The position numbers and the translations under genes are program-made. The notes below the pieces were generated by a model. It was not told the DNA's origin. It made no database searches and saw only the letters and a program-made list of their open reading frames with translations. Below, in pieces: positions 1 through 25,220 of a stretch of 25,220 nucleotides of DNA. Origin of the DNA: a virus; IMG/VR virus record IMGVR_UViG_3300034160_000203, positions 1-25,220 of that record; one strand, written 5' to 3'. Each line of letters starts with the position of its first letter. Within the stretch, counting starts at the first letter, position 1.

Positions 1-390
1 TTACTGCCGGCCACGCGAGTGAAGCTGCTGCAATGCATGCACAATAACCCGCATGAACAAATACAGCATGGCCCCAAAGACGCACCAGAACACCGCACTG
101 ACGGTATACGCCAACTCCTGCCAAAGTGAATAACCGGGCGTCAGCCAGAAGTGACGGATAAACAAACAAAATGGCACCGCATAGAGCGCCCCGAGCAGTG
201 GACACAAAATGCGTTTTTTGCTCGACAGATAGCTGGCAATAGCACCAGGGATCACAAACAGCAGCAACCCCGTCTCACCATCATGAGCAGACTCTGAACC
301 GCTGAAAACCCCGCCCTTCTGGCCCAGAAAAACCAGGCTGAACAGCAAGAAACTGCTGAAAATACCCAGCCAGTAGCGATAGCTTGTCAT
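1..390 (-). CDS. ybjM: Inner membrane protein YbjM
   Basis: A 129-residue hydrophobic protein with about four predicted membrane segments (roughly residues 7-24, 43-58, 63-80 and 92-116). It matches my recollection of E. coli YbjM in size and hydrophobic pattern. The assignment rests mainly on position, because ybjM is the divergent neighbour of ybjL in E. coli. The ATG at 388-390 is preceded by a good ribosome binding site (GGGGAGA, about five bases upstream). The TAA occupies the first three bases of the window, so the gene is complete. No catalytic motif is visible and the family has no firmly established function. This is host chromosome, not phage. Confidence 0.8.
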   Translation of the reverse strand: MTSYRYWLGIFSSFLLFSLVFLGQKGGVFSGSESAHDGETGLLLFVIPGAIASYLSSKKRILCPLLGALYAVPFCLFIRHFWLTPGYSLWQELAYTVSAVFWCVFGAMLYLFMRVIVHALQQLHSRGRQ

Positions 391-721
391 ACACTTCTCC
401 CCTTTAGCGATGTGACCACTGACTACATCGTAAAAACAGTCTTCTCACAGGCGTTGTGATGCGCAGCCAAAGCTGGCAACGCTGACTGAACTTTTCCTTG
501 GCTATAAAAAGGGTTAAATGCATCGGGCGGCACATACCGGCATGCTTTATGCTGGCTGTCGCGCGTCATAGAGACTAGAATAAGCGCCGCTGATCGATGG
601 TCTGAATTGCCTTCCGCTGGTCAGCTGTTCTATAAGTTTTTATCCCTATATTCTGTGGGTAAATTTATATCTTATAGTTTTATACATCAAGAATTTACTG
701 GTAAACAATAAGTTATCCTAC
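391..721. other. Divergent ybjM-ybjL intergenic region
   Basis: This 331-bp stretch lies between two divergent genes and must hold the promoters and leaders of both. It becomes AT-rich toward ybjL (about 640-720), where several TATA-like words occur (for example around 650-690), but none pairs with a convincing -35 box. No ORF, RNA gene or clear operator is visible. The bases just before the ybjL GTG lack an obvious Shine-Dalgarno sequence. Confidence 0.5.
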
Positions 722-2410
722 GTGAACATAAACGTCGCTAGTTTGTTAAGCGGTAACTACATCCTGTTACTGTTTGTGGTACTCGCCCTGGGGCTCTGCC
801 TTGGAAAACTCCGCCTGGGTTCCGTTCAACTCGGTAATTCCATTGGCGTTTTAGTTGTATCGCTGCTGCTTGGCCAGCAACATTTCACTATTAACACTGA
901 AGCCCTGAATCTCGGTTTCATGCTGTTTATTTTCTGCGTTGGCGTTGAAGCCGGCCCGAACTTTTTCTCGATTTTTTTCCGCGACGGCAAAAATTACTTC
1001 ATGCTGGCGCTGGTTATGGTCGGTTCAGCTATGGTACTCGCCATCGGTCTTGGCAAACTGTTCCAATGGGATATCGGCCTCACCGCAGGTATGCTCGCCG
1101 GTTCAATGACCTCTACGCCCGTGCTGGTAGGGGCTGGCGATACGCTGCGCAACACCATTACCAATGGCCCAGCGCTGCTGGTGGCCCAAGATCATCTGAG
1201 CCTGGGCTATGCCCTGACTTACCTGATTGGCCTGGTGAGCCTGATTTTTGGCGCACGCTACCTGCCCAAATTGCAGCATCAGGATCTCCCAACATCCGCC
1301 CAACAGATTGCCCGCGAACGTGGCCTGGATACCGATAGCCAGCGCAAAGTCTATCTGCCGGTGATCCGTGCTTATCGCGTTGGTCAGGAACTGGTTGCCT
1401 GGGCAGACGGCAAGAATCTGCGTGAACTCGGTATTTATCGCCAAACGGGCTGTTATATCGAACGTATTCGCCGCAACGGTATTCTGGCCAACCCGGATGG
1501 TGATGCCGTATTGCAGGTCGGGGATGAAATCTCGCTGGTGGGTTACCCCGATGCTCATGCACGCCTGGATCCCAGCTTCCGTAACGGTAAAGAAGTGTTC
1601 GACCGCGATCTGCTGGATATGCGCATCGTTACCGAAGAGATCGTGGTGAAAAACAGCAACGCCGTGGGTAAACGCCTGAGCCAGTTGAAACTAACCGATC
1701 ACGGTTGCTTCCTGAACCGCGTGATCCGCAGCCAGATTGAAATGCCGATTGACGACAGCATTGTGCTGAACAAAGGTGACGTGTTGCAGGTTAGCGGTGA
1801 TGCGCGCCGTGTGAAGAGCGTGGCAGAAAAAATCGGGTTTATCTCTATTCACAGCCAGGTCACCGACCTACTGGCCTTCTGCGCCTTCTTTATTATCGGT
1901 TTACTGATTGGGCAAATCACCATCCAGTTCAGCAACTTCTCATTCGGCATCGGTAACGCTGCCGGTCTGTTGATGTCTGGCATCATGCTTGGCTTCCTGC
2001 GCGCTAACCACCCAACATTCGGCTACATCCCGCAGGGTGCGCTTAATATGGTGAAAGAGTTTGGCCTGATGGTGTTTATGGCGGGCGTTGGCCTGAGTGC
2101 TGGCGCGGGCATTGGGAACAGCTTGGGTGCCGTTGGCGGCCAGATGCTGATTGCTGGCTTAATCGTCAGCTTGGTACCGGTGATCATCTGTTTCCTGTTC
2201 GGTGCTTACGTCTTGCGGATGAACCGAGCCCTGCTGTTCGGTGCCATCATGGGGGCGCGTACCTGTGCCCCGGCGATGGAAATCATCAGCGATACGGCAC
2301 GCAGTAACATCCCTGCGCTGGGTTATGCTGGGACCTACGCTATCGCTAACGTATTGTTAACTCTGGCAGGTTCGCTCATTGTGGTGATATGGCCAGGTAT
2401 ATGGGGATAA
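722..2410 (+). CDS. ybjL: YbjL, AspT/YidE-family membrane transporter
   Basis: A 562-residue protein nearly collinear with E. coli YbjL (561 residues). Two blocks of membrane helices (about residues 5-180 and 380-560) flank a central cytoplasmic region with two TrkA_C (RCK_C) domains (about 205-285 and 290-375). This is the layout of the aspartate:alanine exchanger (AspT) and YidE/YbjL family. The opening [17 protein letters not shown] matches the E. coli protein, which supports the GTG start at 722 despite a weak upstream ribosome binding site. The substrate of YbjL is not firmly known, though the family suggests anion or amino-acid exchange across the inner membrane. Its neighbours ybjM (divergent) and rybB (downstream, same strand) give the E. 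coli order. It is a chromosomal gene and appears intact. Confidence 0.95.
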
Positions 2411-2468
2411 CGCATCAACAAAGAAATGATTCAGGGCTAAAATATTTTGGATTTTTTTATCGACTGCC

Positions 2469-2496
2469 AGAACTTTTCAATCTGACGATAGTCTGA
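2469..2496 (+). promoter_or_regulatory. Sigma-E promoter of rybB
   Basis: GAACTT at 2470-2475 is followed after 16 bases by TCTGA at 2492-2496. The RybB start would be G2503, six bases further on. This fits the sigma-E (RpoE) consensus, and rybB is a known member of the sigma-E envelope-stress regulon. Spacing and both boxes are read directly. Sigma-E control here is inferred from the match. Confidence 0.85.
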
Positions 2497-2502
2497 CTTA
2501 GT

Positions 2503-2582
2503 GCCACTGCTTTTCTTTGATGTCCCCAATTTGTGGAGCCCGTTAGTCCCGCCGTTTCAGGTTCAAGACTAGCGGGTTTTTT
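2503..2582 (+). ncRNA. rybB: RybB small RNA
   Basis: The sequence starts with GCCACTGCTTTTCTTTGATG, the conserved 5' end of RybB, which is its seed for base-pairing with outer-membrane-protein mRNAs. It then continues collinearly with E. coli RybB (about 79 nt) through TGTGGAGCCC to a terminator hairpin and U-run. Substitutions relative to E. coli lie mostly in the terminator stem (2539-2548 with 2567-2576), where pairing is kept. RybB is an Hfq-dependent, sigma-E-induced RNA that represses porin and other outer-membrane mRNAs. The gene lies downstream of ybjL on the same strand, as in E. coli, and appears intact although a prophage begins just beyond it. Confidence 0.93.
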
Positions 2583-2585
2583 ATT
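2539..2585 (+). terminator. Rho-independent terminator of rybB
   Basis: A 10-bp stem is formed by CCCGTTAGTC (2539-2548) and GACTAGCGGG (2567-2576), with one G-U pair. It is followed by TTTTTT at 2577-2582. This is both the 3' module of RybB (Hfq-binding U tail) and the edge of recognisable host sequence. Confidence 0.88.
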
Positions 2586-2674
2586 GCCTGAATTTTAGCA
2601 CCATTAAAAACAATCACTTACAATGCAATGAATTACCCGATGGCGACAAAATGGCGGCGCATTTTTTATGGGCG
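2560..2674. other. Probable prophage attachment region (one att junction)
   Basis: Host-type sequence ends with the rybB terminator, and phage sequence is certain from the ogr terminator (2675) onward. In P2 the order is D-ogr-attP-int, so the ogr-proximal end of an integrated P2-like phage abuts host DNA, as seen here. The core repeat probably overlaps the 3' part of rybB or lies just after it. The second copy is outside the window, so the exact core cannot be given. The stretch 2586-2674 has no gene. Confidence 0.6.
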
Positions 2675-2697
2675 AAAAAAAACCTGCTTTCGCAGGC
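2675..2697 (-). terminator. Rho-independent terminator of ogr
   Basis: Read on the minus strand, CCTGC and GCAGG (2683-2687 with 2692-2696) pair around a GAAA tetraloop, with a possible extra terminal G-U pair. A run of eight T follows (2675-2682). It lies just past the ogr stop codon and converges on rybB. Confidence 0.85.
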
Positions 2698-2702
2698 TTC
2701 TT

Positions 2703-2921
2703 TCAGATCCACAGCGTTCCCTGGTTTTCCCTGGTTGGATGCGGTGGCACAATATCAATTTTTCCCGGTGTCACTATTTGGCGTTGAATTGATTCCAAGG
2801 TCACAAAGGTACAACTACAGTTTATATTCTGGCATTGGTGATAACGTTCTTTGGTGTTCTCACTCAGATAGCGACTTGTGCGGGCGTGTGCTGCGGTTCT
2901 GCAAAGCGGGCAATGCATCAT
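2703..2921 (-). CDS. ogr: Ogr/Delta-type zinc-finger late transcription activator
   Basis: A 72-residue protein whose segments TAAHARTSRYL and TKERYHQCQN match P2 Ogr. A CX2C pair (Cys4, Cys7) and a CX4C pair (Cys30, Cys35), separated by 22 residues, form the single zinc-binding module of the Ogr/Delta family. Ogr binds upstream of phage late promoters and recruits host RNA polymerase through its alpha subunit, switching on capsid, tail and lysis genes. The ATG at 2919-2921 follows a strong GGAGGGG about eight bases upstream. The next ATG (2916-2918) is also possible. Upstream extension in frame to 2948 lacks family similarity. It is the last gene before the attachment region, as in P2, and has its own terminator. 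Confidence 0.95.
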   Translation of the reverse strand: MMHCPLCRTAAHARTSRYLSENTKERYHQCQNINCSCTFVTLESIQRQIVTPGKIDIVPPHPTRENQGTLWI

Positions 2922-2929
2922 TATACTAT

Positions 2930-2990
2930 CCCCTCCTCTCTCCCTCATTTGCCGCGATAATACCTCGCACGATCAAGAACAAAACCACCT
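2930..2990 (-). promoter_or_regulatory. Possible ogr promoter
   Basis: On the minus strand a good -10 word TATTAT lies at 2957-2962, and the ogr ribosome binding site follows about 25 bases later. The -35 region (about 2979-2985, TTTTGT) is poor. ogr could instead be read mainly by readthrough from the FI-D operon. Confidence 0.3.
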
Positions 2991-2994
2991 TTAA

Positions 2995-3017
2995 GTGAAT
3001 TTACAAAAATAATTCAC
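2995..3017. repeat. Inverted repeat between D and ogr
   Basis: Perfect 7-bp arms GTGAATT (2995-3001) and AATTCAC (3011-3017) surround a 9-base AT-rich loop, immediately after the D stop codon. It may be a weak attenuator or an operator for ogr. There is no good U-run on the minus strand. Confidence 0.5.
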
Positions 3018-3018
3018 A

Positions 3019-4164
3019 TTATGATAAGTCATAAGAAACATCAGACAGCAACACCTCCAACTCTACCGCCGTCGTAAAGCCGTTGTTACCCAGGTTATGC
3101 ACCACCTTGCTGACTATCCAGGGTTGGGCGTCGATCACCTGCTTAAACCCCCTCACACGGATCGGCGTTTCCGGCACCAGTTCGGCACGGCCCATGGCAA
3201 GCGACAGCGAGAATTCCGCCACACCGCGTTGCAGCTTTTCCCACTTGGCCTGTGCGGCCCGCATGGCGGCTTTTTGGGTGGCGTACACCGTGATAATGGT
3301 GAACACATTATCTTCCGCGCCCACCAAATATTCTCCCTCGCGGGGTGCTTCCGGTTTGCTGGTTTTCTTGCTGGCCGGTTTCGCCTTCGGGTGTTGCAGG
3401 GCGCGCAGGTGCTGGGTTTTCGGCTTGCGTTTCAGCGTCACTGTCTTTGGCTTGGGCTCGCGGGTATTGAGCCAGCGTGCGGTCACACCGGTGTAGGCGT
3501 CCCGGTCAGCCAGACTAAAACTGTGCCGGTCGCCGTCTTGGCGGGTCAGGGTCATGACCGGCAACGGTTTGCCGTTCACCGTGGTGCCGTTGCCCGGTCG
3601 GATAAGCAGCAGGCAGCCATTTTTCACCGCTGCCACCGCGCCATTCAGTGACGCCAGTCGAGTGATAAACGCCGCATCTGTTTCCTGTGTCTGGTCAATA
3701 TGACCGATGGCGAGACTGTCCAACCCGTCGGCCATCTTGGCGGTCAACTGATTACGGGCCGCCACCTGCCGCACGATATCGCCGAGAGTGGTGTCGTGGT
3801 AGGAGGCTTCGCGCCGGGTGTTAAGAGTGCCCCTAAAATCTGCACTGCGGGCGCGGATGGTCAGCGTGTCCGGCGCGCCCCGGTGCTCGACCTCGTCCAC
3901 CGTAAAGCGTCCTTTCGGTGTCAGTGGCGAACCCTGCCAGCCGAGGGCCAGCGACAGCACCGCATTACGCTGTGGCATCACCATCAGCCCGTCGCTGTCG
4001 TCCAGCTCAATATCAAGCTGGTCAGCCTCAAAGCCCCGGTTATCGGTCAGTGATAACGACAACAGCCGGGGGCGGATATTGTGGGTAATGTCATTGCCCT
4101 GCAAGGTCAGTGAGAAGTCCGGGGCAACACGCGCCCCGGCGGGCAGTGGAACGGCGGTTATCAT
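3019..4164 (-). CDS. D: Tail protein gpD (phage late control D family, baseplate hub)
   Basis: A 381-residue member of the phage late control gene D family, close to the size of P2 gpD (387). These proteins form the central hub below the tail tube that holds the gpV spike, comparable to T4 gp27. The N-terminal part (about 1-225, including the stretch PKGRFTVDEVEHRG) is the conserved hub fold. A lysine/proline-rich linker follows (about 240-275), then a C-terminal domain with EYLVGAEDNVFTI. The start ATG overlaps the stop of U as ATGA, which indicates translational coupling. It is the last structural gene of the FI-D late operon. Confidence 0.93.
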   Translation of the reverse strand: MITAVPLPAGARVAPDFSLTLQGNDITHNIRPRLLSLSLTDNRGFEADQLDIELDDSDGLMVMPQRNAVLSLALGWQGSPLTPKGRFTVDEVEHRGAPDTLTIRARSADFRGTLNTRREASYHDTTLGDIVRQVAARNQLTAKMADGLDSLAIGHIDQTQETDAAFITRLASLNGAVAAVKNGCLLLIRPGNGTTVNGKPLPVMTLTRQDGDRHSFSLADRDAYTGVTARWLNTREPKPKTVTLKRKPKTQHLRALQHPKAKPASKKTSKPEAPREGEYLVGAEDNVFTIITVYATQKAAMRAAQAKWEKLQRGVAEFSLSLAMGRAELVPETPIRVRGFKQVIDAQPWIVSKVVHNLGNNGFTTAVELEVLLSDVSYDLS

Positions 4165-4646
4165 GGGAGCAGTCCTCCCAACACATCACCGGCTTTTCCG
4201 GCCAGTTCACCCGCTTGACCATACAGCTCACCGGCCTGCTGTTGCAGGTCACCGAACATGGCTGACAAGGATTCATCCACCCGCTTGAGGGTCAGGGTAA
4301 ACTCGGTGCGGCGCGGGCTGCCATCGGCAAAGAACTGGCTGTGCGTTTCGCTCACCGACTCAATCACAAACATGCCGTAAATGGTGCCGGTGCCTTCAAT
4401 CAACGGCCACGCCCGCCCCTGTTCGGCCATCAGTTGCAGGGTCAGCAGTGACCAGCGTCCGCCGGTGATTTCCGGCAACAACACCCCGGATAACGTGATT
4501 TTTTCCTCATCCAGCCCCAAGAACTGCGCGGCGGGTCGCTGCCCAATGCGCCCGTTGGTCGGCCAGCGATAATCCGCCGTGCGTTGCATCGACTGGTAAG
4601 GCAGCGTATGCAACATAAACACAAAGAGCCCCAAGGTCAGCATCAT
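4161..4646 (-). CDS. U: Tail protein gpU
   Basis: A 161-residue protein of the P2 gpU family (P2 gpU is 159 residues), involved in finishing the tail. Conserved features include an N-terminal hydrophobic stretch (MLTLGLFVFMLHTLPYQ), the core around LSGVLLPEITGG and ERxEFTLTLKRVD-like sequence near residue 120. The C-terminal 35 residues are repetitive and Ala/Gly-rich (GELYGQAGELAGKAGD). It lies between the tape measure T (gap of 12 bases) and D (ATGA overlap). Confidence 0.92.
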   Translation of the reverse strand: MMLTLGLFVFMLHTLPYQSMQRTADYRWPTNGRIGQRPAAQFLGLDEEKITLSGVLLPEITGGRWSLLTLQLMAEQGRAWPLIEGTGTIYGMFVIESVSETHSQFFADGSPRRTEFTLTLKRVDESLSAMFGDLQQQAGELYGQAGELAGKAGDVLGGLLP

Positions 4647-4658
4647 GATGGTTTTCCT

Positions 4659-7151
4659 TTAATTGGTCATGGCACTGCGCGCCCGGGCGCGGCGTTCGCG
4701 CTCCTGCCGGGCCTGTGCCTCATTCAGCAGTTGGAGGGTCGCTTCCCGGCTCATGCCCGCAGGCACCACCACGTCATAGCGGTTATGTGTGACGCTGTTG
4801 TCGGTGTAGGCCGAAGAGGCCCCCGGCACCACCGGCGCATAGCGGGGCGGTATCACCGGTTTGCTGGTTGGTAAACTGGCGGGCGTTTCAGCAGAAGCCA
4901 GCAGGCCGCCGCTCGGTGAATAGCCGTGTCCGTTGGCCCCGTTGGCATAGGGGTTGTTCTTTTCGGCCTCCTTATCCAGTTCGGCGGTTTCGTCTTTCAT
5001 CAGCCCGAGCTTTTTCGCCAGCCAACCCACCTTGCTGCCGAGCTTTTCAAGTACCTGCATCGGTAAGGTCAACGCGTTGCCAATGGCGGCACCGAACTTG
5101 CGGCCCATCTCGGCGGCACTCTGTAACTCGGCCTGCGTAGATTTCACCGGGGCCAGCAGCGCCATAAACCAGTCATAGACGGCTTTAATCTTCTCGCTAA
5201 ACCAGTCAAACACCGGCTTGAGCGGGGTGAAGGCCGCCACAATCGGGGCCAGTGCCGCCTTAAAGCCTTCAGCCACGCCACCGATAAAGGCGCTAATCGG
5301 CTCCCAATATTTGCGGATAAGCAACGCCCCGGCAGCCACGGCGGCAATCAGTGCCAGTACCGGCCAGGATATCGCGGTAAACGCGGTGGCGACCGCGCCG
5401 CCGACAGCGGTAAACACCGTACCTAGCAGGCTGGCCCCGGCCACCAACATATTCACCCCGGCCATCACCGGCCACGCCATCAGGCCGAGCGCTGCCAGCC
5501 CACCGATAAGCGCCGTGACCCCGGCGGTGACTTTTACCAACGAGCCGACCAGTTCCGGGTTGGCTTTGGCCCAGGCACCGACTTTCGCCAGCCACTCGGT
5601 GGCGGTGGTGGTCAGTTGTCGCAGCGCGCTATTCTGGCCGTCGAACACCTCAATGCGCACATCTTCCCAGGCGGAGAACAGGTTTTTCAGGTCACCGTCC
5701 AGGTTGTCCACTTTGACCTTGGCAATCTGGGCGGTGGCGCCCTGGGAGCGGGTAACGGTGTTATGTTTCTGCGCCAACTTGCCGTTACCGGCGGCAGCAA
5801 TCAGCTTGGTGGCCCCCTTCATCGCCTCCTCGCCAAAAATCACCTTCAGGTATTCCGCCTGCTGCGCGGTGCCGAGCGTGTGCTTTTTAAACGAGGTATC
5901 GATTTTCTTGAGAATGCCCGCAATCGGCAGCATGTTGCCTTTGCCATCTTTGGTCTTCACCCCGAGTTCCGCCAGCGCGTCACCGGCCTGCCCGACCGGG
6001 GCCTGCAAGCGGGTAAACAGCGCACTGGTGGCCGTCCCTGCCATACTGCCCTTGATGCCGTTATCCGCCAGAACACCCAGCAGCGCGGTGGCGTCTTCGA
6101 TACTGGCCCCGGCGGCGTCGGCAATCGGCGCGACGTACTTCATCGCCTCGCCAAAATCCATCAGGTTGGAGTTGGAGCTGGTAAACCCCTTGGTCATCAC
6201 ATCGGCAACACGCTGTATCTCGTCTATCGGCAGGTTAAACGCCGATTGCATGTTGGTGATGATGTCCGCCGCGTCGGCGATATCGAGGTCAGACGCCAGC
6301 GCCAGATTGACGGTGGACTCGGTCGATTTCAGGATAGCGTTACCGTCAAAGCCGGATTTTGCCAACACCGATTGGGTGCGGGCGACGTCGGTCGGGGAAA
6401 ACGCGGTGGTCGCGCCAATATCCCGCGCCTGTTGACGGATAGCCGCCAGTTGCCGGTCATTCTTCGCCAGCCCCAGGGTGGCCTGGGTGTCCGACATCTG
6501 GCGGTCGAACGCCACGCCCGGAGCAATAAAGCGGCTCTCGGCATACAACCCGGCGGTAGCGACACCAATCCCGGCAGCACTGGCATTGCGCACGTTGCCG
6601 GTCAGGGCCTTGCCGCGCTGGTAACGTTCACCGACGCGATTCACTGCCGCCTGTTTCTGGCTCAGGCGCGCCAGTTCAGCCCGCTGGCGTGTCAGTGCGC
6701 CGGTCACCTCAACGGCACTGGCTTTTAACCGGCGCTGTTCGGCGCTCAGGTTTTTGGTGGCGATACCGTCGGCGTTCAGGGCATCGCGCTGGCGCTGCAC
6801 CGACTGGCGCAGGCCGTTGTATTTGGTCTGCAGTTCGGTGGCGACCCGCTTTGAGGACTCCAATAATCGCGCCTGTTGCGCGGTGGGTTTCTCGGTGGCT
6901 TTGAACTGCACCGCCAGGGCGGCGGCTTCCTGCTTGGCCTTCTTCAGCGCCGCGCCGGTGACCGCCAGTTGCCCGTTGGCTTTGCGAAAGCCCTCAATCC
7001 GCGCCGCCTGGGTATCCAGGGATTTGAGGCGCTGCTGGGTGCTCTTGATATCCCCGGCCAGGGTCTGGCTGGCCTGTTGGATACTTTTCAGCGGGCGGGT
7101 GGCCTGGTCAACGGCCTTCAGCAACACCTGGAGTTGCAGGCTTTTACTCAT
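4659..7151 (-). CDS. T: Tail tape measure protein gpT
   Basis: An 830-residue tail length tape measure protein (P2 gpT is 815). Residues 1-190 are rich in Lys, Gln, Ala and Leu and look coiled-coil. The conserved TP901-type tape-measure domain follows (about 205-450, with FDRQMSDTQATLGLAKN and GFTSSNSNLMDFGEAMKYVA). Strongly hydrophobic segments occupy about 540-640 and would thread or insert into the host membrane during DNA ejection. The length of such a protein sets tail length, so a tail like that of P2 is expected. It overlaps the end of the E' frame by eight bases, which fits coupling to the frameshift product. The long open frames on the opposite strand here are shadows. Confidence 0.95.
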   Translation of the reverse strand: MSKSLQLQVLLKAVDQATRPLKSIQQASQTLAGDIKSTQQRLKSLDTQAARIEGFRKANGQLAVTGAALKKAKQEAAALAVQFKATEKPTAQQARLLESSKRVATELQTKYNGLRQSVQRQRDALNADGIATKNLSAEQRRLKASAVEVTGALTRQRAELARLSQKQAAVNRVGERYQRGKALTGNVRNASAAGIGVATAGLYAESRFIAPGVAFDRQMSDTQATLGLAKNDRQLAAIRQQARDIGATTAFSPTDVARTQSVLAKSGFDGNAILKSTESTVNLALASDLDIADAADIITNMQSAFNLPIDEIQRVADVMTKGFTSSNSNLMDFGEAMKYVAPIADAAGASIEDATALLGVLADNGIKGSMAGTATSALFTRLQAPVGQAGDALAELGVKTKDGKGNMLPIAGILKKIDTSFKKHTLGTAQQAEYLKVIFGEEAMKGATKLIAAAGNGKLAQKHNTVTRSQGATAQIAKVKVDNLDGDLKNLFSAWEDVRIEVFDGQNSALRQLTTTATEWLAKVGAWAKANPELVGSLVKVTAGVTALIGGLAALGLMAWPVMAGVNMLVAGASLLGTVFTAVGGAVATAFTAISWPVLALIAAVAAGALLIRKYWEPISAFIGGVAEGFKAALAPIVAAFTPLKPVFDWFSEKIKAVYDWFMALLAPVKSTQAELQSAAEMGRKFGAAIGNALTLPMQVLEKLGSKVGWLAKKLGLMKDETAELDKEAEKNNPYANGANGHGYSPSGGLLASAETPASLPTSKPVIPPRYAPVVPGASSAYTDNSVTHNRYDVVVPAGMSREATLQLLNEAQARQERERRARARSAMTN

Positions 7152-7577
7152 CGTCTTTCACCCCGCTGCGTTGCACCGCTTTATCACGCCAGTTCAGCAA
7201 CTCGGTGAGCGACATCCCGGCCATTTCCGACGGCGGCCAGTGAAATATCACTGCGATATCCGCCATCAAGTCATCGACACCCAACCGGGTATCCGTTACA
7301 ACGCCGAGTTCGGCGACAAAAAACCGACCACCTGCCCGGCCAAGGCGACCAAGTCCGGCAGCTCCAGACGCGCACACTCCTCGCGGGTCAGCGGCGGCAC
7401 CGTCATGCGGGGCAGCACCATCAGCAGCGCGTCCACATCGGCATTAGCGACCGCTGCCAGACCGACACCGCGCAGAGTGCCCGCGTTGGGTTTTAGCACC
7501 TGCACGGTGGTGATGGTGGTTTCACCACGTTGGATAGGTGTATCCAGGGTAATGGTGTTTTCTTTGCTGTTTTTCAT
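7144..7577 (-). CDS. E': Tail assembly chaperone gpE' (made by -1 frameshift in E)
   Basis: This is the frameshifted extension of gene E. Ribosomes read E to the slippery T TTT TTG at 7317-7323, slip back one base and continue in the -1 frame to the stop at 7144-7146. The product has about 144 residues, near the 142 of P2 E'. The extension contains ADIAVIFHWPPSEMAGMSLT and ends with AVQRSGVKDDE, the GpE+E' signature. By analogy with lambda G/GT, the two products chaperone the tape measure protein T during tail assembly. The extension could also be annotated as a separate 40-residue ORF from ATG 7264-7266, but the conserved slip site argues against independent initiation. Confidence 0.88.
7296..7577 (-). 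CDS. E: Tail assembly chaperone gpE
   Basis: A 93-residue P2 gpE family protein (P2 gpE is 91), with the typical sequence NTITLDTPIQRGETTITTV near the N terminus and LTREECARLELPDL near residue 70. I chose ATG 7575-7577 because its length fits P2. A GTG at 7587-7589 would add four residues, and neither start has a strong ribosome binding site. The E stop lies 18 bases after a T TTT TTG heptamer, which diverts a fraction of ribosomes into E'. It sits between the tail tube FII and the tape measure T, the usual position of tail assembly chaperones. Confidence 0.92.
   Translation of the reverse strand: MKNSKENTITLDTPIQRGETTITTVQVLKPNAGTLRGVGLAAVANADVDALLMVLPRMTVPPLTREECARLELPDLVALAGQVVGFLSPNSAL
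7317..7323 (-). promoter_or_regulatory. Programmed -1 frameshift site of E/E'
   Basis: Minus-strand heptamer T TTT TTG, in the E frame as GGT TTT TTG, lies 18 bases before the E stop codon. P2 uses the same heptamer at nearly the same distance. The -1 frame stays open for 57 further codons and encodes the conserved E' domain. Confidence 0.9.
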
Positions 7578-7672
7578 TGCGTGACTCACTTAAAAAGGGA
7601 TAACGGCCAGCCGTTCAGGACGTCAGGCTGGCACAGGGTTATGGGTACGGGGTACCAGTGCCCCATAGCGAA

Positions 7673-8182
7673 CTACAGACCAATCGCCTTGCGGTGTTCG
7701 GCCAGCCGGTCAACGCCGTTGACCTTCTCCACCATGTTCACCGTGTCGATTTCAATCAGCTCTTTGCCGTCAATCGTCAGCTTGTAGTAGGTGCATTCGG
7801 TGGAAACCTTGGTTTCGGTGTCTTCCCCTTCCTTATACTCACCAAAATCGATTTCCTTATGGCGACCGCGCAGCACCACTTCCACGGCGGACACCTCACC
7901 GGTGTCATCCCGCTGGAAGGCCCCGGCAAAGCGCAGCGGCACTGCCGCCACCGCTCCCCATTGCTCAAGCACTAGGGCATCAAACCCACCCAGCGACCAC
8001 TCGACGGTCAGGGCGTCATCGTCCAGCCCCATATCAATGGGAGCGGCACCGTTCATGCCGCCGCCCCGGTATTTCTCCAGCTTGCGGGTGAGCTTGGGCA
8101 GCGTCATGGAAGACACCACGCCCATGTAGCTGTAACCGTCGTTAAACAGGTTCAAGCGTTTCAGTTTTCTCGGCAATGCCAT
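7673..8182 (-). CDS. FII: Major tail tube protein gpFII
   Basis: A 169-residue protein of the P2 major tail tube family (P2 FII is 172). It opens with MALPRKLKRLNLFNDG and contains EKYRGGGMNGAAPIDMGLD, both typical. It polymerises into hexameric rings forming the inner tail tube inside the contractile sheath. The gene starts 14 bases after the sheath gene FI, with AAGGAG upstream. An 83-base gap without a gene separates it from E. Confidence 0.95.
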   Translation of the reverse strand: MALPRKLKRLNLFNDGYSYMGVVSSMTLPKLTRKLEKYRGGGMNGAAPIDMGLDDDALTVEWSLGGFDALVLEQWGAVAAVPLRFAGAFQRDDTGEVSAVEVVLRGRHKEIDFGEYKEGEDTETKVSTECTYYKLTIDGKELIEIDTVNMVEKVNGVDRLAEHRKAIGL

Positions 8183-8196
8183 AGCGCAACGGCTCC

Positions 8197-9366
8197 TTAG
8201 CGGTTAACGGACGCGGCGAACGTCACCAGATACTTGTCGGTGATGCGCTGGCGCAGGGTCAAATCTTCCAGCGGTGGCACCGGGGTGTAGTCGTAATCGA
8301 TAAACAGCTTTCCGGCCTTGAGGGTCTCTTTGTCGTTGGCGCTGTCGTCATACCAGCAATCGCCATCGACAATCAGCCCGGCGGATTTCAGCTCACGAAA
8401 CTTGGCCTTGATGCCATCAATCATGTCGCGAATGAGCGTCGGCGTGACCGGGCGGTCAACCGCCCACAGGTGGGCCTCGGCCAGGGTGTCGGCCAGCACC
8501 TGCGCGGTGCGGGTGTAGTTCTCGAACTGGAACAGCGGATCGTCCGAACAGGTGCGGGAGCCCCAGAACTTGAAGCCGTCTTTGCGGATAAGCGTGGTCA
8601 CACAGGCTTCGTTCAGCAGGTCAGCATCGGTGCCTGGGGCCTGCAAGTCCCAGAACACCGAGGCACTGATACCGGTCACGCCATTGACGCCGACGTTGGA
8701 CAGGGTTTTATGCCAGCCGGTCTCGCTGTCGATTTTGGCGCGCAGGCCAAGCGCCCGCGCCGTGGCATAAGCTATGTCGCTGCTGTTGGCGGTGGTATTC
8801 CAGGTGATGAAGTCTGGCCAAATCAGCATCAGCTCACGCTGGCTGAAATTGTCGCGGTACTTGATGGCCTCGGACACCGTTTTGCAGCCGAACGCGCTGA
8901 TATAGCCAAAGGCGCGCAACTGCTGGCAGACGCTGGCGAGTGCGGTCGCCACCGCCAGCGAGTCCAATCCGGGCACGCCGAGAATACGCGGTTTGACGCC
9001 GAGGTCAGCCTGGGCGGCCAACAGCGCTTTCATGCCGGTGTAACGGCCCTGTGCATCCGCGCCGCCGATAATGTTGGAGGTAGTCTCCGCCTCGTCTTTA
9101 CCTTCGGCGACGCGCACCACTACGGTGACCGGGCGGGCCTGTTCGGCAATGGCACGCAGGGAACTGGCGAGGGTGCCGCTTTTCCCGGCCTTGCCACTGG
9201 CAGCCAGGACATCGGTGATCAACACCGGGGTATTGAGGGGAAACAGGGTGGCGTCCGCGTCTGCTCCGGTGCAGACCATGCCGACCACGGCGGTCGAGAC
9301 CGTGGAGATAACGCGGGTGCCGTCGTTGATTTCGACCACACGCACGCCGTGATGATAGTCAGCCAT
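8197..9366 (-). CDS. FI: Tail sheath protein gpFI
   Basis: A 389-residue contractile tail sheath protein (P2 FI is 396), starting MADYHHGVRVVEINDGTR with the conserved TVSTAVVGMVCTG stretch. The C-terminal half (about 260-385) is the conserved sheath domain with FKFWGSRTCSDDPLFQFENY. Contraction of the assembled sheath drives the tube through the cell envelope. It is the first gene of the FI-D late operon. GGAG lies eight bases before the ATG, and a predicted Ogr box is centred about 81 bases upstream. Confidence 0.95.
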   Translation of the reverse strand: MADYHHGVRVVEINDGTRVISTVSTAVVGMVCTGADADATLFPLNTPVLITDVLAASGKAGKSGTLASSLRAIAEQARPVTVVVRVAEGKDEAETTSNIIGGADAQGRYTGMKALLAAQADLGVKPRILGVPGLDSLAVATALASVCQQLRAFGYISAFGCKTVSEAIKYRDNFSQRELMLIWPDFITWNTTANSSDIAYATARALGLRAKIDSETGWHKTLSNVGVNGVTGISASVFWDLQAPGTDADLLNEACVTTLIRKDGFKFWGSRTCSDDPLFQFENYTRTAQVLADTLAEAHLWAVDRPVTPTLIRDMIDGIKAKFRELKSAGLIVDGDCWYDDSANDKETLKAGKLFIDYDYTPVPPLEDLTLRQRITDKYLVTFAASVNR

Positions 9367-9561: not shown

Positions 9562-10644
9562 ATGAAAGAAGCCAATAAAAACACAAATATTCAAATACTT
9601 AGAGCAGTTGCTATCTTACTTGTCGTCGTTCAGCATCTTCATCGCCTACCTCTTCCTGAATGGTTATTGTCCACCTATAGCAAAGCCTCATATTGGACGG
9701 GGGTAGATATTTTCCTGGCAATATCAGGCTACCTGATGTGCAAAAGTCTAGAGAGTGAAATAATCAAAAATGGGAGAGGTACTCGTGCCTTCTCTGCTTT
9801 CTTTATGAAAAGAGTCTTCCGGCTTGTACCTGCTCTTTTCTTCTGGTGTCTGATATGCATTTTAATCGCTTCCCTGATCTCCCCTTTCTATGGAGCCAGT
9901 ATTTCGAAGTCATTTGAAACCTTTATTTATTCGATGCTGGGAATATCTAATTTATTTTTTTATGAACGCACCATCGCGAACATCCCTTATGACCCTTTGA
10001 TTTCCGTAACATGGTCTTTAAGCTTAGAGTGGCAACTTTATATAATTCTTGCTTTATTTTCCGTGATACTGAGAAAACACGCGTTGGTTTTTGCCATGAT
10101 GGCAATTATCTTATTGTCGTCACTCTTCCTACCGAATAGTGTTAGCCATCAGGAAACAATAGGTTGGTGGATAAGACCGCAAGCCTTCTTTTTAGGTGCT
10201 CTTATCTATATTTTTGAAGACAAAATATCTTGTGTAATCAAAGGCCCACTCTTGAGCTTTTCTCTATTCCTGCTCTCGAGTTTTTCCTTGGTATACTTTA
10301 CCCCGATAATAGCACCCCAACTTAAACTTTTTTACATTGGACTATTGGGTGCTATAATTTTTGCCTCACTGTCGATATCCATGTCAGTGGCCATTCGCTC
10401 AAGCGTGTTAGAGTGGATTGGCGATCGCTCATACAGTATTTATCTTTGCCACATCCCTATTATGCTTTTAACAAGAATGCTTTTAGATAAATATCTGGAA
10501 GGCTCTTTCTTATATCAAAATATTATGCTCTATCTGGCAACTTTCACTCTAGCCACAGCGTTTGCATCTGATTTAAGTTATAGATTTATAGAGAAGAAAT
10601 CCATTGAGCTTTACAAGAAAAGATACAGTGAAAAGCCTGCTTAA
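9562..10644 (+). CDS. Acyltransferase-3 family membrane O-acyltransferase (cargo gene)
   Basis: A 360-residue, very hydrophobic protein with about ten membrane helices, of the acyltransferase-3 (OafA/NodX/YrhL) family. Key motifs are present: Arg14 and His25 in the R-X10-H pattern of the first helix (LRAVAILLVVVQH), FLAISGYLM near residue 55, WSLSLEWQLY near 152 and a closing YRFIEKK. No C-terminal SGNH domain is attached. Such enzymes move acetyl groups across the inner membrane to O-antigen, other glycans or peptidoglycan. Prophage copies often change serotype and block other phages. The exact substrate here is unknown. The ATG follows AGGGGAAAG. The gene is AT-rich, lies opposite to the late genes between FI and G, and has its own predicted promoter and terminator, all signs of recent acquisition. 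Confidence 0.9.
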   Translation: MKEANKNTNIQILRAVAILLVVVQHLHRLPLPEWLLSTYSKASYWTGVDIFLAISGYLMCKSLESEIIKNGRGTRAFSAFFMKRVFRLVPALFFWCLICILIASLISPFYGASISKSFETFIYSMLGISNLFFYERTIANIPYDPLISVTWSLSLEWQLYIILALFSVILRKHALVFAMMAIILLSSLFLPNSVSHQETIGWWIRPQAFFLGALIYIFEDKISCVIKGPLLSFSLFLLSSFSLVYFTPIIAPQLKLFYIGLLGAIIFASLSISMSVAIRSSVLEWIGDRSYSIYLCHIPIMLLTRMLLDKYLEGSFLYQNIMLYLATFTLATAFASDLSYRFIEKKSIELYKKRYSEKPA

Positions 10645-15834: not shown

Positions 15835-15897
15835 CATGATTACCATTTGGGATATATTGATATGTAACTGTGTTCAAGAATGAAAGGGAGGGTTTGC

Positions 15898-16668
15898 ATG
15901 TTTGGAATTGAAGTAATCACACCTGATGTATATAAAAATATTTTCTTTATGTATTTAATCATTCTTGCCATTTATCGATGTGGCGGAGTTACTTTCATTT
16001 TTCGATTAATACTAAGAACTGCAAGAATAGGATTTAAGAGTGGATTACTGGCAAAGCAAGATGATGAAGCATTCTACATTCAGATGTTCAGGTTTTTAAA
16101 TGGTGTCAATGTACGAACAAAGGAAGATACAGAGATAATTTCCAAAGGCTTATCCTCTGGGGAGTTGAATCGCTCAGATTTCCGCTTCTCTTGTTTCTTT
16201 GGCGCGGTAGGAATTATGAAACCATCTTACATTGATACATACTTCGTAGCAGCAATGACACTTGCCATGCTTGGATTCTCCTTGTTTATGGTTACTAATC
16301 TTCCCAAGATTGATTATGTCAATTACACATATAAATCAGTTAAGCTTCAGATGTCAAATGAAAATTTATTCCTGCCAGATAAGGGGCAGTATATAAACAA
16401 AGATAGGTGTATTGAAATTGTAAAAACCCACCCTAAAGACATATATAAGATGGCTTGTGAGTATCTGGTTTTGAAATCAGAAGAGCGACAAAACGAGCTC
16501 AAAAAATACATTAACAAATGGAATAACATTCGGTGGGTGTATCTTACAATTCTGTTTTTTTCCGTAATTTCTTCTGTATCTTTAATCACTGGGGGACTTA
16601 ATAGCCGCAACCTTAATGAGTTCATTTTCAACAAAAAAATCAGCACCTCAAGAATGCTGATAGCTTAA
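15898..16668 (+). CDS. Unrecognised AT-rich membrane protein (cargo gene)
   Basis: A 256-residue protein that I do not recognise. Predicted membrane segments lie at about residues 14-38 (FFMYLIILAIYRCGGVTFIF), 114-136 (FVAAMTLAMLGFSLFMV) and 212-233 (WVYLTILFFSVISSVSLI). A hydrophilic region of about 70 residues, rich in Lys, Glu and Tyr, separates the last two. ATG 15898-15900 is favoured because GGGAGGG lies five bases upstream. An in-frame ATG at 15880 would add six residues. The gene is far more AT-rich than its neighbours, runs against the late genes and sits between S and V, a late-operon boundary. This is how lysogenic conversion or phage-exclusion genes are placed in P2-like phages, but no function can be read from the sequence. 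Confidence 0.8.
   Translation: MFGIEVITPDVYKNIFFMYLIILAIYRCGGVTFIFRLILRTARIGFKSGLLAKQDDEAFYIQMFRFLNGVNVRTKEDTEIISKGLSSGELNRSDFRFSCFFGAVGIMKPSYIDTYFVAAMTLAMLGFSLFMVTNLPKIDYVNYTYKSVKLQMSNENLFLPDKGQYINKDRCIEIVKTHPKDIYKMACEYLVLKSEERQNELKKYINKWNNIRWVYLTILFFSVISSVSLITGGLNSRNLNEFIFNKKISTSRMLIA
16633..16661 (-). terminator. Rho-independent terminator of the O-S operon
   Basis: On the minus strand, ATCAGCA and TGCTGAT (16655-16661 with 16639-16645) form a 7-bp stem with a 9-base loop, followed by a T-run. It lies 44-72 bases past the S stop, inside the 3' end of the convergent cargo gene, and separates the O-S and V-G operons. Confidence 0.75.
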
Positions 16669-20294: not shown

Positions 20295-21377
20295 TTACTC
20301 TCCGCTTTTCGCAGGGGCATCTTCCGGCGGGACAGCCGGGGTGAAATCACCCAGTTCGATGTTTTCCACCACGCAGCCGCAGGCATAATCCTCAACCACG
20401 TAATCCTCATTGATGGATTCGTAGTTCTCGACGCGGTCGCGCTTGGGGTTTTCTTCCAGGTGGCGACGGTGGGTGTCTTCCTGCCAATAGATGGAGAGGT
20501 TATCCAGGCGGGTTATCATCAAGGCATTGGCCGGGAAGTACGGCACGCGTACCGCAGGCAGATTGCCGATGCGTTTCTGGCTGATAATCATGTCAGCCGC
20601 CATGGCTTCGCTGTTGGGCTGTACCTGATTGACCAGCGGGAAGTATTTATCCGCCAGCAGCTTGCGGCCACAAATCACCACCAGTTCCGGGTCTTCCTGA
20701 TACCAGTCGGCAATCAGTTCGGCGTGGGCGCTCATCACCAGCGCATCGAGATTGGTGTAATCGCCACCGGGCCCTACACGAAGCGTGTCAGACAGGACAG
20801 TGCCGTTATCGTCCTGCACATTGCTCATCACCCGCGCTGGCGCTTCGTCCCGGTATTTTTGCAACCAGCCGACGGCAATATCCTGCAACATCGGGTTTTT
20901 AAGGCGGTTGGAGGTCTTGGCACGGTGGGTGCCGTTAAAACCGATGGTGATACGGTCAAGCGCCTGACGCTTCACGATGGCATCACGTAGGCGGGTTTGG
21001 AAATCCTGGTAACGCGCCCACAGGTCAAGGGTGTTATAGCGGATATGGAAGTCGTAGTTCACCTGCTGGCAGAAATAGCCGTCCTTATCCAGGGAGGCAA
21101 AATCGGCGGTTTCGCGTTCGTCACCCGCGCTGGTGTCGGTGGTGCTGGCAATGGTGCCGTTAACTCCCAGGCCCACCTTCTCGGCCTTCATCTCGGCCAC
21201 CGGCACAATGTTGATGCTGCTCAGGAACGCGGAAGATTCCTGTACGCGGGTCATGATGGTTTGTGTCACCGACGGCTCGACGCTGAATTTCTTGTCCAGG
21301 TCGCCGGTATCGACGCCGTTCAGCTCGGCGATACGGCTTAAAAACTTGTTAAATTGAAAGCGGGTTTTCTGACGCAT
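20295..21377 (-). CDS. N: Major capsid protein gpN
   Basis: A 360-residue P2 family major capsid protein (P2 gpN is 357). The N-terminal part MRQKTRFQFNKFLSRIAEL is the segment removed by the gpO protease in P2. The body contains KVGLGVNGTIASTTDT and GFNGTHRAKTSNRLKNPMLQ, both highly typical of the family and of HK97-fold P2 capsids. The C-terminal end is acidic and proline-rich. It lies between scaffold/protease O (36-base gap) and terminase M. Confidence 0.96.
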   Translation of the reverse strand: MRQKTRFQFNKFLSRIAELNGVDTGDLDKKFSVEPSVTQTIMTRVQESSAFLSSINIVPVAEMKAEKVGLGVNGTIASTTDTSAGDERETADFASLDKDGYFCQQVNYDFHIRYNTLDLWARYQDFQTRLRDAIVKRQALDRITIGFNGTHRAKTSNRLKNPMLQDIAVGWLQKYRDEAPARVMSNVQDDNGTVLSDTLRVGPGGDYTNLDALVMSAHAELIADWYQEDPELVVICGRKLLADKYFPLVNQVQPNSEAMAADMIISQKRIGNLPAVRVPYFPANALMITRLDNLSIYWQEDTHRRHLEENPKRDRVENYESINEDYVVEDYACGCVVENIELGDFTPAVPPEDAPAKSGE

Positions 21378-21413: not shown

Positions 21414-22262
21414 TTAGCAGTCGGTCAGCACGTCTTGCGCACCGCTGCCGCCGGTGGCGGGCGGGCGTTGTCCTTGGCTGAAACTCTCGGTGCTGGCAAG
21501 CTGCTGCTTCAGCGCCGCAAAGGCCACCGCATCGGTCTCCACCTGCTGCTTGAGGTCGGCCACCTGCTGGGTCAGGGTGGTTTCCAACTGGCTGAATCGC
21601 TGCTCGGTGCCCTGCACCTGCTCGGCCACGGTCATCACCGCGCCTTCCATCTCGCTAAAACGCGCGTCATCGCTGGCCTGCTTGCGACTAAACATCGCTT
21701 TTACGCGGGCGGCAAAGGTCGGCTCCGGGTCGGCCAGCTCTTCAAACTCAATCAGCGCCTCACTGGCGACGGTGAACACGTTGGCCGGGTCGGCCTTGCG
21801 GGCGGTCAGCGGGTTGTGTTGGGCGGTACGGCTGAAGGTCAGCATCTCGGTGCCGAGGCTCGCCGGGTCATCGGTCACCGCCAGCCCCATAAGGTAGCTG
21901 CTGCCGGTCTTGGCAAAATTGCGGCCGATTTCCATCGAGGTGTAGACCTTCTGGCTCTTGCCAATCATCGCCACCAGTTCGGCGGTCGGGGATAACTTGG
22001 CGTACAGCGCCCACTTGCCGTGCAGGCGGGGTTCGTCCGGGTCGTCAATCTGTTCGGCCTTCAGCTCAATCACATCGCCATAACGGCGGAAATCACTGTC
22101 GGGCAAAATCCCCTTGATGTGCTCCAGGTTGATGCGCGCCCCGTACACCTTCGGGTTATAGCTGCTGCCCATTTGCTGAATGTCGTTGGCGTCAATTTCG
22201 CGACCGTCGCAGGTGTCACCCTCCAGGCCAATGCGAAACCACTTTGAAACTTTCTTTGCCAT
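21414..22262 (-). CDS. O: Capsid scaffolding protein and serine protease gpO
   Basis: A 282-residue P2 gpO family protein (P2 gpO is 284). The N-terminal half is a herpesvirus-like serine protease. Asp19, His48 (INLEHIKG) and Ser109 (VYTSMEIG) sit close to the catalytic residues reported for P2 gpO. The C-terminal part (about 200-260, many Gln, Glu and Leu) is the coiled-coil scaffold that guides gpN assembly. ATG 22260-22262 follows GGAGAG. A longer frame to 22427 would run into the start of P. It is the first gene of the O-S operon and divergent from P. Confidence 0.95.
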   Translation of the reverse strand: MAKKVSKWFRIGLEGDTCDGREIDANDIQQMGSSYNPKVYGARINLEHIKGILPDSDFRRYGDVIELKAEQIDDPDEPRLHGKWALYAKLSPTAELVAMIGKSQKVYTSMEIGRNFAKTGSSYLMGLAVTDDPASLGTEMLTFSRTAQHNPLTARKADPANVFTVASEALIEFEELADPEPTFAARVKAMFSRKQASDDARFSEMEGAVMTVAEQVQGTEQRFSQLETTLTQQVADLKQQVETDAVAFAALKQQLASTESFSQGQRPPATGGSGAQDVLTDC

Positions 22263-22335
22263 GTTGAACGGCTCTCCGGTTGTGGGGTTCGGGGCCAGTG
22301 TGCGGACAACAGCCCGCAGGCTCAACGCGTTGCAG

Positions 22336-22355
22336 TTGGACGAACCGAGGCACAA
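22336..22355 (-). promoter_or_regulatory. Predicted Ogr binding site of the O operon (PO)
   Basis: The minus-strand word TTGTGCCTCGGTTCGTCCAA shares its ends and TGT-N12-CCA core with the FI and V boxes. Its centre is 83 bases from the O start, nearly the same as for FI (81). The divergent P promoter needs its own site. A weaker TGTGCGG...CCCG word at 22299-22316 on the plus strand is a candidate. Confidence 0.65.
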
Positions 22356-22401
22356 CAGGGACTTAAGGCGGGTTGAAACGGGCTTGCGTAGCCTTGGCAG
22401 C

Positions 22402-24171
22402 ATGAACACGACACCGACGACACTCATCAGCGACCCGCGCCGACAGGCGGCCCTGCTTTACTGGCAGGGCTTCTCCGTGCGCCAGATTGCCGACACGCTG
22501 CAAACCAAGGCCCCGACCGTGCAAAGCTGGAAGCTGCGCGACAAGTGGGACGCCATCGCGCCGATATCCCGCGTCGAGCAAAGCCTGGAGGCGCGGTTAA
22601 TCCAGCTCATCATGAAAAGCCACAAGGAGGGCATCGACTTTAAGGAGATTGACCTGTTGGGCCGACAGGTGGAGCGGCTGGCGCGGGTGAACCGCTACGC
22701 CCAGACCGGCAACGAGGCCGATTTAAACCCCAACGTTGCCAATCGCAACAAGGGGGAGCGCAAGCCCGTTGAGCGCAACCTGTTCAGTGAGGCGGCCATT
22801 GAGAAGCTGAATGACATTTTCCAGCAGTCCACCTTTGAGTATCAGAAGGGGTGGTATCGCGCCGGGTTGCAACACCGTATCCGCAACATCCTCAAGTCAC
22901 GGCAAATCGGGGCCACCTTCTTCTTTGCCCGTGAGGCGCTGCTGGATGCACTGACCACCGGACGAAATCAAATATTCCTCTCGGCCTCCAAGGCTCAGGC
23001 GCATGTGTTCCGCAATTACATCATTGATTTTGCGCGGCTGGTCGAGGTGGATTTGAAGGGTGACCCGATGGTGTTATCCAACGGCGCACGGCTGATGTTC
23101 CTCGGCACCAACGTGCGTACCGCACAGAGCTACACCGGCAACCTGTACCTGGATGAATACTTCTGGATACCCAAGTTCCAGGAGCTGCGCAAGGTCGCCA
23201 GCGGCATGTCGCTGCACAAGAAATGGCGCACCACCTACTTTTCCACCCCGTCCAGTCTGGCGCACAGTGCCTATCCGTTCTGGTCGGGGGAGCTGTTCAA
23301 CAAGGGGCGGCGCAGCAAGGCCGACCATCTCCAGCTCGACCTCAGTCACAGCCATCTGGCAAAAGGCGTGCTGTGCGGCGATGGACAGTGGCGACAGATT
23401 GTCACGGTGGAAGATGCACTCACCGGCGGCTGTAACCTGTTTGACCTTAACCAGCTTTCACTGGAATACAGCCCGTCGGAATACCAGAACCTGCTGATGT
23501 GCGAATTTGTGGACGATACGGCCTCGGTGTTCCCGTTCGCCGAGTTGCAGGGCTGTATGGTGGATACGCTGGAAGAGTGGGACGACGTCAACCCGTATGC
23601 CGTGCGGCCCTTTGGTTATCGCCCGGTGTGGATTGGTTACGACCCGTCGGAGGCCAACGGCGGCGACAGTGCCGGGTGTGCGGTTATCGCCCCGCCAATG
23701 GTGGCCGGGGGCAAGTTCAGGGTGCTGGAGCGCCACCAGTGGCAAGGGATGAACTTTGCCGACCAGGCGCAGAAGATCAAAGACCTGACCGACAAATACT
23801 GTGTGGAATACATCGGTATCGATGCGACCACCGTCGGGCAAGGCGTATTCCAGTTGGTGCGGGAATTCTTCCCGGCAGCGCGTGAAATCAAATACACCCC
23901 GGAAATCAAGACGGCGATGGTGCTGAAAGCCAAGGACACCATCGGGCGCGGCTGCCTGGAATACGACACCAGCCACACCGACATCACCGCCTCGTTTATG
24001 GCGATACGCAAGACCATGACCGCCAGCGGCGCACGCTCGACCTACACCGCCAGCCGCAGTGAAGAAGCCAGCCATGCGGATCTGGCCTGGGCCATCATGC
24101 ATGCCCTGTTAAATGAACCGTTGACCGCCGGGAGCGGCAACAGCAGCCCGAACATTTTGGAGTTTTACTGA
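22402..24171 (+). CDS. P: Terminase large (ATPase) subunit gpP
   Basis: A 589-residue P2 gpP family terminase ATPase (P2 gpP is 590) that drives DNA packaging into the procapsid with gpM. An N-terminal helix-turn-helix (about 20-45, YWQGFSVRQIADTLQTKAPT) precedes the ATPase domain. The Walker A-like motif is SRQIGAT at 166-172 and Walker B is LYLDEYFW at 249-256. A C-terminal RNase H-like fold shows Asp in IGYDPS (414) and IGIDATTVG (474). ATG 22402-22404 gives the P2 length. The longer open frame covers the O promoter region. No good ribosome binding site is visible. Its stop overlaps the Q start as TGATG. Confidence 0.96.
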   Translation: MNTTPTTLISDPRRQAALLYWQGFSVRQIADTLQTKAPTVQSWKLRDKWDAIAPISRVEQSLEARLIQLIMKSHKEGIDFKEIDLLGRQVERLARVNRYAQTGNEADLNPNVANRNKGERKPVERNLFSEAAIEKLNDIFQQSTFEYQKGWYRAGLQHRIRNILKSRQIGATFFFAREALLDALTTGRNQIFLSASKAQAHVFRNYIIDFARLVEVDLKGDPMVLSNGARLMFLGTNVRTAQSYTGNLYLDEYFWIPKFQELRKVASGMSLHKKWRTTYFSTPSSLAHSAYPFWSGELFNKGRRSKADHLQLDLSHSHLAKGVLCGDGQWRQIVTVEDALTGGCNLFDLNQLSLEYSPSEYQNLLMCEFVDDTASVFPFAELQGCMVDTLEEWDDVNPYAVRPFGYRPVWIGYDPSEANGGDSAGCAVIAPPMVAGGKFRVLERHQWQGMNFADQAQKIKDLTDKYCVEYIGIDATTVGQGVFQLVREFFPAAREIKYTPEIKTAMVLKAKDTIGRGCLEYDTSHTDITASFMAIRKTMTASGARSTYTASRSEEASHADLAWAIMHALLNEPLTAGSGNSSPNILEFY

Positions 24172-25220
24172 TGAGCAAGCGCAACCGCCGCAAGGCATTG
24201 ACCACCACAACACAGCAGACAACACAGCATACACACCAACCCACCCCCACACAGAACGTGGAGGCGTTTACCTTTGGGGAGCCGTCGCCGGTGATGGACA
24301 AACGGGAAATTCTCGACCACCTGGAGTGCTGCGGCAACGGCAAATGGTACGAGCCGCCGATAAGTTTCGACGGACTGGCACGCAGTATGCGGGCCGCCGT
24401 GCATCACAGCTCACCGATGTTTGTGAAGCGCAATATTCTGGCCTCCACCTTTATCCCGCACCCGCTGTTAAGCCAGCAGGAATTTAGCCGCTATGCGCTG
24501 GATTATCTGGTGTTCGGTAACGCGTTCCTGGAGCTGCGCAAGAACCAGCTCGGCGAACCGCTGCGTCTGCAATGCTCCCCGGCCAAATACACCCGCCGGG
24601 GCGTGGAGCCGGATACCTACTGGTTTGTGCAAGACTGGAAAGAGGCGCACCAATTTGCACCCGGCAGCGTGTTTCACCTAATTGAACCCGATATCAACCA
24701 GGAACTGTACGGCCTGCCGGAATACCTGAGCGCGTTGAACTCCGCATGGCTGAATGAAGCAGCCACGCTGTTTCGCCGCAAGTATTACCAGAACGGCGCA
24801 CACGCCGGTTACATCCTCTATATGACCGATGCGGCACAGAGTACCAGCGACGTGGACAGGATGCGGCAGGCGATGCGCGATACCAAAGGGTTAGGCAACT
24901 TCCGTAATTTGTTTATGTACGCCCCCAACGGCAAGCCCGACGGCATCAAGATTTTGCCGTTGAGTGAAGTTGCCACCAAGGATGATTTTTTCAATATCAA
25001 AAACTCCAGCCGCGACGATCTGCTGAGTGCGCACCGCGTACCGCCGCAGATGATGGGGATCATCCCCAATAATACGGGCGGATTTGGGGATGTAGAGAAG
25101 GCCAGTCAGGTGTTTGTGAGGAATGAGTTGATGCCGTTGCAGGAAAGGATGAAGGAAATAAATTATTGGGCTGAGGAAGAAATCATCCGCTTTTTACCTT
25201 ATGACTTATCAAGTGGTTAA
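24171..25220 (+). CDS. Q: Portal protein gpQ
   Basis: A 349-residue P2 family portal protein (P2 gpQ is 344), forming the dodecameric channel for DNA at the capsid vertex. After a Thr/Gln-rich N terminus (about 8-27) come EAFTFGEPSPVMDKREILDH and the conserved YFPQ-like core with LIEPDINQELYGLPEYLSAL and HRVPPQMMGIIPNNTGGFGD. The gene is complete, with its stop at the last three window bases. It is translationally coupled to P. In P2 the cos site and the tin/old region come next, outside the window. Confidence 0.95.
   Translation: MSKRNRRKALTTTTQQTTQHTHQPTPTQNVEAFTFGEPSPVMDKREILDHLECCGNGKWYEPPISFDGLARSMRAAVHHSSPMFVKRNILASTFIPHPLLSQQEFSRYALDYLVFGNAFLELRKNQLGEPLRLQCSPAKYTRRGVEPDTYWFVQDWKEAHQFAPGSVFHLIEPDINQELYGLPEYLSALNSAWLNEAATLFRRKYYQNGAHAGYILYMTDAAQSTSDVDRMRQAMRDTKGLGNFRNLFMYAPNGKPDGIKILPLSEVATKDDFFNIKNSSRDDLLSAHRVPPQMMGIIPNNTGGFGDVEKASQVFVRNELMPLQERMKEINYWAEEEIIRFLPYDLSSG

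Follow-up and report, generated by a model that had tools for sequence, protein, structure and literature searches.

rybB as the probable attachment site of a P2-like prophage in a Serratia chromosome

Introduction

P2 prophages inserted at rybB (designated "Rybb*") are listed for Escherichia coli W, B and Crooks in Table 2 of PMC3032704, which also lists P2-type elements at cyaR. An earlier note on the DNA studied here had placed the attB of P2 itself at cyaR, in agreement with this insertion table. Among the papers searched for work specifically on attachment at rybB, PMC3032704 was the only one found. The attL and attR sites annotated in Klebsiella phage 4LV2017 (Elveevirus, Peduoviridae; KY271398) have a 19-bp sequence in common, ATGGGTTTTTTGTTGCCTG, in rybB; rybB lies around attR, ogr adjoins rybB, and int is found at the other end of the phage. 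In the prophage of E. coli LR-50, which was read in the course of this work, the order is ybjL-rybB-ogr...int-rcdA, with ogr toward rybB and int toward rcdA.

Insertion at rybB has been described before in E. coli and Klebsiella, and the prophage described here is an ordinary new example from Serratia, which is thereby added to the hosts whose rybB terminator is an established insertion site for P2-like phages. The virus record that we analyzed is 25,220 bases long and is referred to in its entirety as the window. We are highly confident that it contains one half, that on the ogr side, of a P2-like prophage (Peduoviridae) resident in a Serratia chromosome, and that its integration, presumably by a 4LV2017-type tyrosine integrase, took place at rybB, the 3' half of whose terminator serves as attB.

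Results

Host flank and the rybB gene

The left end of the window carries the following features.

1..390, minus strand: ybjM, host gene (Pfam PF11045, 3.1e-37); the record starts at its stop codon
722..2410, plus strand: ybjL (Asp-Al_Ex permease), host gene (Pfam; genome scan)
2470..2496, plus strand: sigma-E-like rybB promoter (GAACTT, spacer, GTCTGA), read from the sequence
2506..2585, plus strand: intact rybB sRNA including its terminator and U tract (Rfam RF00110; fold)

The product of ybjL was 99% identical to Serratia proteins in a genome scan, and the left flank (ybjM-ybjL) is chromosomal and of Serratia type. Downstream of ybjL sits rybB, which matched Rfam RF00110 over the full length of the model (positions 1-79 of 79; 100.4 bits, E of 7.9e-20), above the gathering score. 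Its RNA folds with a strong terminator at -23.8 kcal/mol (z of -3.7), and none of 200 shuffled sequences folded as well. The segment at 2470-2496, upstream of the gene, resembles the sigma-E consensus and is its putative promoter. The earlier note had described an intact RybB followed within about 90 bases by the ogr terminator and ogr, and this description proved accurate: the last base of rybB is 2585 and the first of the ogr hairpin is 2676.

Phage genes

After rybB, the prophage genes follow in the order ogr-D-U-T-...-N-O-P-Q.

2676..2702, minus strand: ogr terminator hairpin and T tract, between ogr and rybB (fold of -14 kcal/mol, z of -4.8)
2703..2948, minus strand: ogr, late-gene activator, convergent with rybB (Pfam Ogr_Delta, 7.6e-22; phrog_603)
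3019..4164, minus strand: gene D, tail protein (phrog_52, 5.7e-164)
9562..10644, plus strand: acyltransferase, an O-antigen acetylase-like moron (Pfam Acyl_transf_3, 7.4e-31; phrog_3333)
15880..16668, plus strand: 262-aa moron, function unassigned (phrog_2407 only)
20295..21377, minus strand: gene N, major capsid protein (phrog_70, 2.7e-162)
21414..22427, minus strand: gene O, scaffold (phrog_73, 1.7e-106)
22180..24171, plus strand: gene P, terminase ATPase (phrog_5751, 3.6e-178, from residue 71); its true start is probably downstream of 22180
24171..25220, plus strand: gene Q, portal; the record ends at its stop codon

Genes D, N, O and P match the P2-type tail, head and packaging families, and gene Q has hundreds of relatives among viral contigs. 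Several traits of Peduoviridae are present: ogr and D lie by the attachment site, the late genes are in P2 order, and P and Q are divergent from O. The early region, in which members of the family carry a tyrosine integrase, cI/cII and rep A, would lie beyond the end of the record at gene Q. Escherichia phage P2 shares with the window its gene order, the position of ogr by the attachment site and an attB at an sRNA, but its attB is a different one (cyaR; PMC3032704) and its integrase specificity presumably differs as well. Phage 4LV2017, P2-like as the window prophage is, showed 79% nucleotide identity to the window over the junction, whereas its late genes were only 67-73% identical at the DNA level where they could be aligned; it also differs in host, in morons and in its core (ATGGG, as opposed to GCGGG in the window). 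The E. coli "Rybb*" prophages (W, B and Crooks) and that of LR-50 occupy the same insertion site as the window prophage, and LR-50 has the same gene order, but the cargo is different: retron Ec86 in strain B and a SIR2 protein in LR-50. The best DNA match over the structural genes, which alone were compared, was Yersinia phage vB_YenM_31.17 (75% over 47% of the query).

The two morons lie on the strand opposite to their neighbors. The acyltransferase gene is upstream of the tail sheath gene, and its product resembles phage O-antigen acetylases. The 262-aa open reading frame lies between V and S; it had no Pfam match, and a comparison with PADLOC gave only a marginal match to HamA (E of 0.007). 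In LR-50 the SIR2 protein is encoded at the same place, which is a possible cargo hotspot.

Attachment core and the two junctions

Two further features lie at the junction between rybB and ogr.

2572..2592, plus strand: attachment core GCGGGTTTTTTATTGCCTGAA, at a position equivalent to direct repeats in 11 relatives
2641..2658, plus strand: tandem TGGCGACAAAATGGCGGC motif, probable integrase arm-type site (motif scan; putative role)

The boundaries of the record coincide exactly with the stop codons of ybjM (start) and gene Q (end). With both ends at gene boundaries, the record looks trimmed, and int and the second junction are absent from it because it ends at the gene Q stop. Since the window contains one junction only, both junctions were read in relatives. 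Eleven elements with both junctions came from Serratia, Yersinia, a Klebsiella phage, E. coli, Rahnella and Buttiauxella. In all 11, the 3' end of RybB, from about nucleotide 62-70 onward, was repeated at the int-side junction as a direct repeat of 14-30 bp, as opposed to a maximum of 9-12 bp in shuffled controls. The earlier note had predicted that a repeat of 2550-2620 would be found at the second junction. The repeat was indeed there in every relative, but it is shorter than predicted and corresponds to about 2572-2592.

The core consists of the 3' arm of the RybB terminator, the U tract and the bases that follow. The window resembles the unoccupied site of Serratia sp. Ag1 through the core and departs from it just beyond, and the host-phage boundary appears to lie within or just after the core. 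An ogr-side junction immediately after RybB is characteristic of the rybB-integrated type and is found in the window. As the earlier note had foreseen for the empty site, the sequence beyond int is host DNA, namely rcdA in E. coli as opposed to an ASCH-domain gene at the closest Serratia empty site. Thus, although the record itself ends at Q, the proposal that rybB is the attB of this prophage is well supported at the level of sequence by the rybB 3' repeat at the second junction of 11 of 11 relatives. A GCGGG-type core repeated in both copies was seen nowhere, because in the closest Serratia species that could be traced the sites are decayed or empty.

We propose that recombination occurs inside a core of approximately 15-20 bp (the 3' end of the stem, the U tract and the following bases) that is common to attP and attB, with the exact crossover point presumably within it. 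Such a crossover would keep rybB whole; ogr would come to lie directly after it, in convergent orientation and with the ogr terminator in between. Integration would duplicate the core, and the far junction, beyond the end of the record, would have the order int, about 90 bp, the second core copy and host DNA.

Alternative explanations

Because the record contains a single junction, one could argue that the junction arose by chimeric assembly or by rearrangement and that the true attachment site is elsewhere. We consider this extremely improbable. Window positions 1-8837, which span the rybB-ogr junction, are matched at 96% in one piece by L196, an independent viral contig of metagenomic origin, and the junction is therefore real and not an assembly artefact. 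It is also found in S. oryzae (93%), and 1,099 of 5,426 complete E. coli genomes (~20%) contain a homologous junction, scored where a place in the genome covered 80% or more of the query made from the E. coli junction. On these independent occurrences, a chimeric or artefactual origin was ruled out. The window might also derive from an old integration at rybB, now an immobile remnant from which int and part of the early region have been lost. The record does end at Q, and remnants do occur at this site: only ogr and fragments in S. oryzae (L003 and L106) and in G029, and partial P/Q remnants in S. marcescens and S. nevei. However, every structural gene examined between ogr and Q, both included, has a full-length open reading frame, an independent relative (L116) continues past Q, and the ends of the record at gene boundaries suggest trimming rather than decay. 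We therefore regard a remnant as rather unlikely.

The earlier note had further suggested that the prophage alters RybB output through the 3' end of the RNA, its termination or antisense transcription from ogr. The gene is convergent with rybB and close to it, but an effect of this kind is very doubtful. Promoter, RNA, terminator and U tract are retained; the RNA, the stem and the U tract are the same as at the empty site because the core is duplicated, and the ogr hairpin with its T tract (-14 kcal/mol) stands between the two genes. Given the number of complete E. coli genomes that match the junction query, the arrangement appears to be stable as well as common, and it persists in ~20% of them. 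The unchanged RybB, the intervening terminator and this common, stable arrangement all argue that an effect on RybB levels is unlikely, and antisense interference from ogr was likewise judged unlikely, given the hairpin and T tract. The locus opens no new question about RybB itself.

Sites in nearby Serratia

We searched for a complete rybB prophage in the nearest Serratia species. S. oryzae and G029 held remnants and G030 an ogr-side end, with no int or second core detected in the stretch examined, and the rybB sites of G001, G031 and G032 look empty. The S. oryzae remnant (L003 and L106:1-3412) consists of one end of ogr, a PAAR-motif gene and late-gene fragments, after which comes the host ASCH gene. 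At rybB in S. marcescens (L007) and S. nevei (L012), ogr and part of D are joined directly to a homologue of window 23.0-25.2 kb (P/Q), and the late genes between them are missing.

Integrase class and site specificity

Of 20 viral contigs tested, of which 18 were known to contain rybB, 16 encoded a 4LV2017-type integrase. The class was defined by an identity of at least ~74% to the Serratia type of integrase, and 80 viral contigs carried a member of it. Thirty-two of these reach far enough past int for the core to be judged; the core was present in 27, in 25 of them at an identical distance, and a clean core was absent in 5. In L378-L380, int is slightly shorter, different DNA comes after it and there is no clean core, and in L398 and L399 the core is degenerate, perhaps representing secondary sites. 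Among genomes of the family, the core lay by int for two of the three integrases that are at least 75% identical and was absent for the third (L422, 79%). At 27 loci with integrases ~51-61% identical there was no core, and some of these elements were at other sites; the core was absent with integrases below 62% identity. Judged by these sequence comparisons, the 4LV2017-type integrases are a sharp specificity class, and both core and class are now defined across Enterobacterales.

In L378, L379 and L380, and also in L322, L323 and L325, the integrase ends a few residues earlier and extra DNA is found where the core would be expected, which gives the impression of a cargo insertion between int and the attachment site. 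Related integrases with 55-56% identity (L429, L432, L433 and L436) adjoin AAAAAAAGACCGAATACGATTCC, which in our estimation resembles the terminator of the SdsR/RyeB sRNA and would be another sRNA-terminator site. The window prophage supports the general point that such phages target the terminators of sRNAs and leave the sRNA unbroken.

Tandem motif and terminator arms

The tandem motif TGGCGACAAARTGGCGRC on the ogr side (2641-2658) was matched once in the window and not at all in 100 shuffles. An ogr-side tandem motif near rybB was found in 17 of 80 species, compared with 0 of 2,000 random segments, and relatives carry a further copy at their other junction, within the 3' end of int. Its presence on the ogr side and in the int 3' end fits integrase arm sites, and the TGGCGACAAAATGGCGGC motif is a probable arm-type site. 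A Yersinia phage with its integration site at a tRNA has a similar motif, and so the arm motif is not proof of a rybB site.

We tentatively suggest, without considering it likely, that rybB-specific P2-like phages have in their attP an intrinsic terminator of their own, downstream of int, that the 3' arm and U tract of this terminator form the core, and that integration swaps the 5' arms. Strong, compact int-side hairpins that end in the core were found in two of four lineages: that of Klebsiella/Enterobacter (ACCCGTTTACATAAATGGGT), at -9 kcal/mol, and the ACCCGGTGACATTACCGGGT lineage, at -11 to -14 kcal/mol. With such a hairpin, the 5' arms would change places upon recombination, and each of the two ends would still have a terminator. 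No compact int-side hairpin was present in the Serratia or the Yersinia lineage; the former has a weaker long-range stem, and the long-range stem of the latter had a z of 0.3. A universal int-side terminator hairpin was therefore rejected, and arm exchange would not be general. Where it did operate, rybB and int would both keep a working terminator, and the 5' arm of the phage would follow the host-specific core sequence.

In L331/L356 (IMGVR_UViG_2519899758_000002), a second ogr-side end follows int and the core, a pattern that two tandem elements at rybB, or a circular junction, would show.
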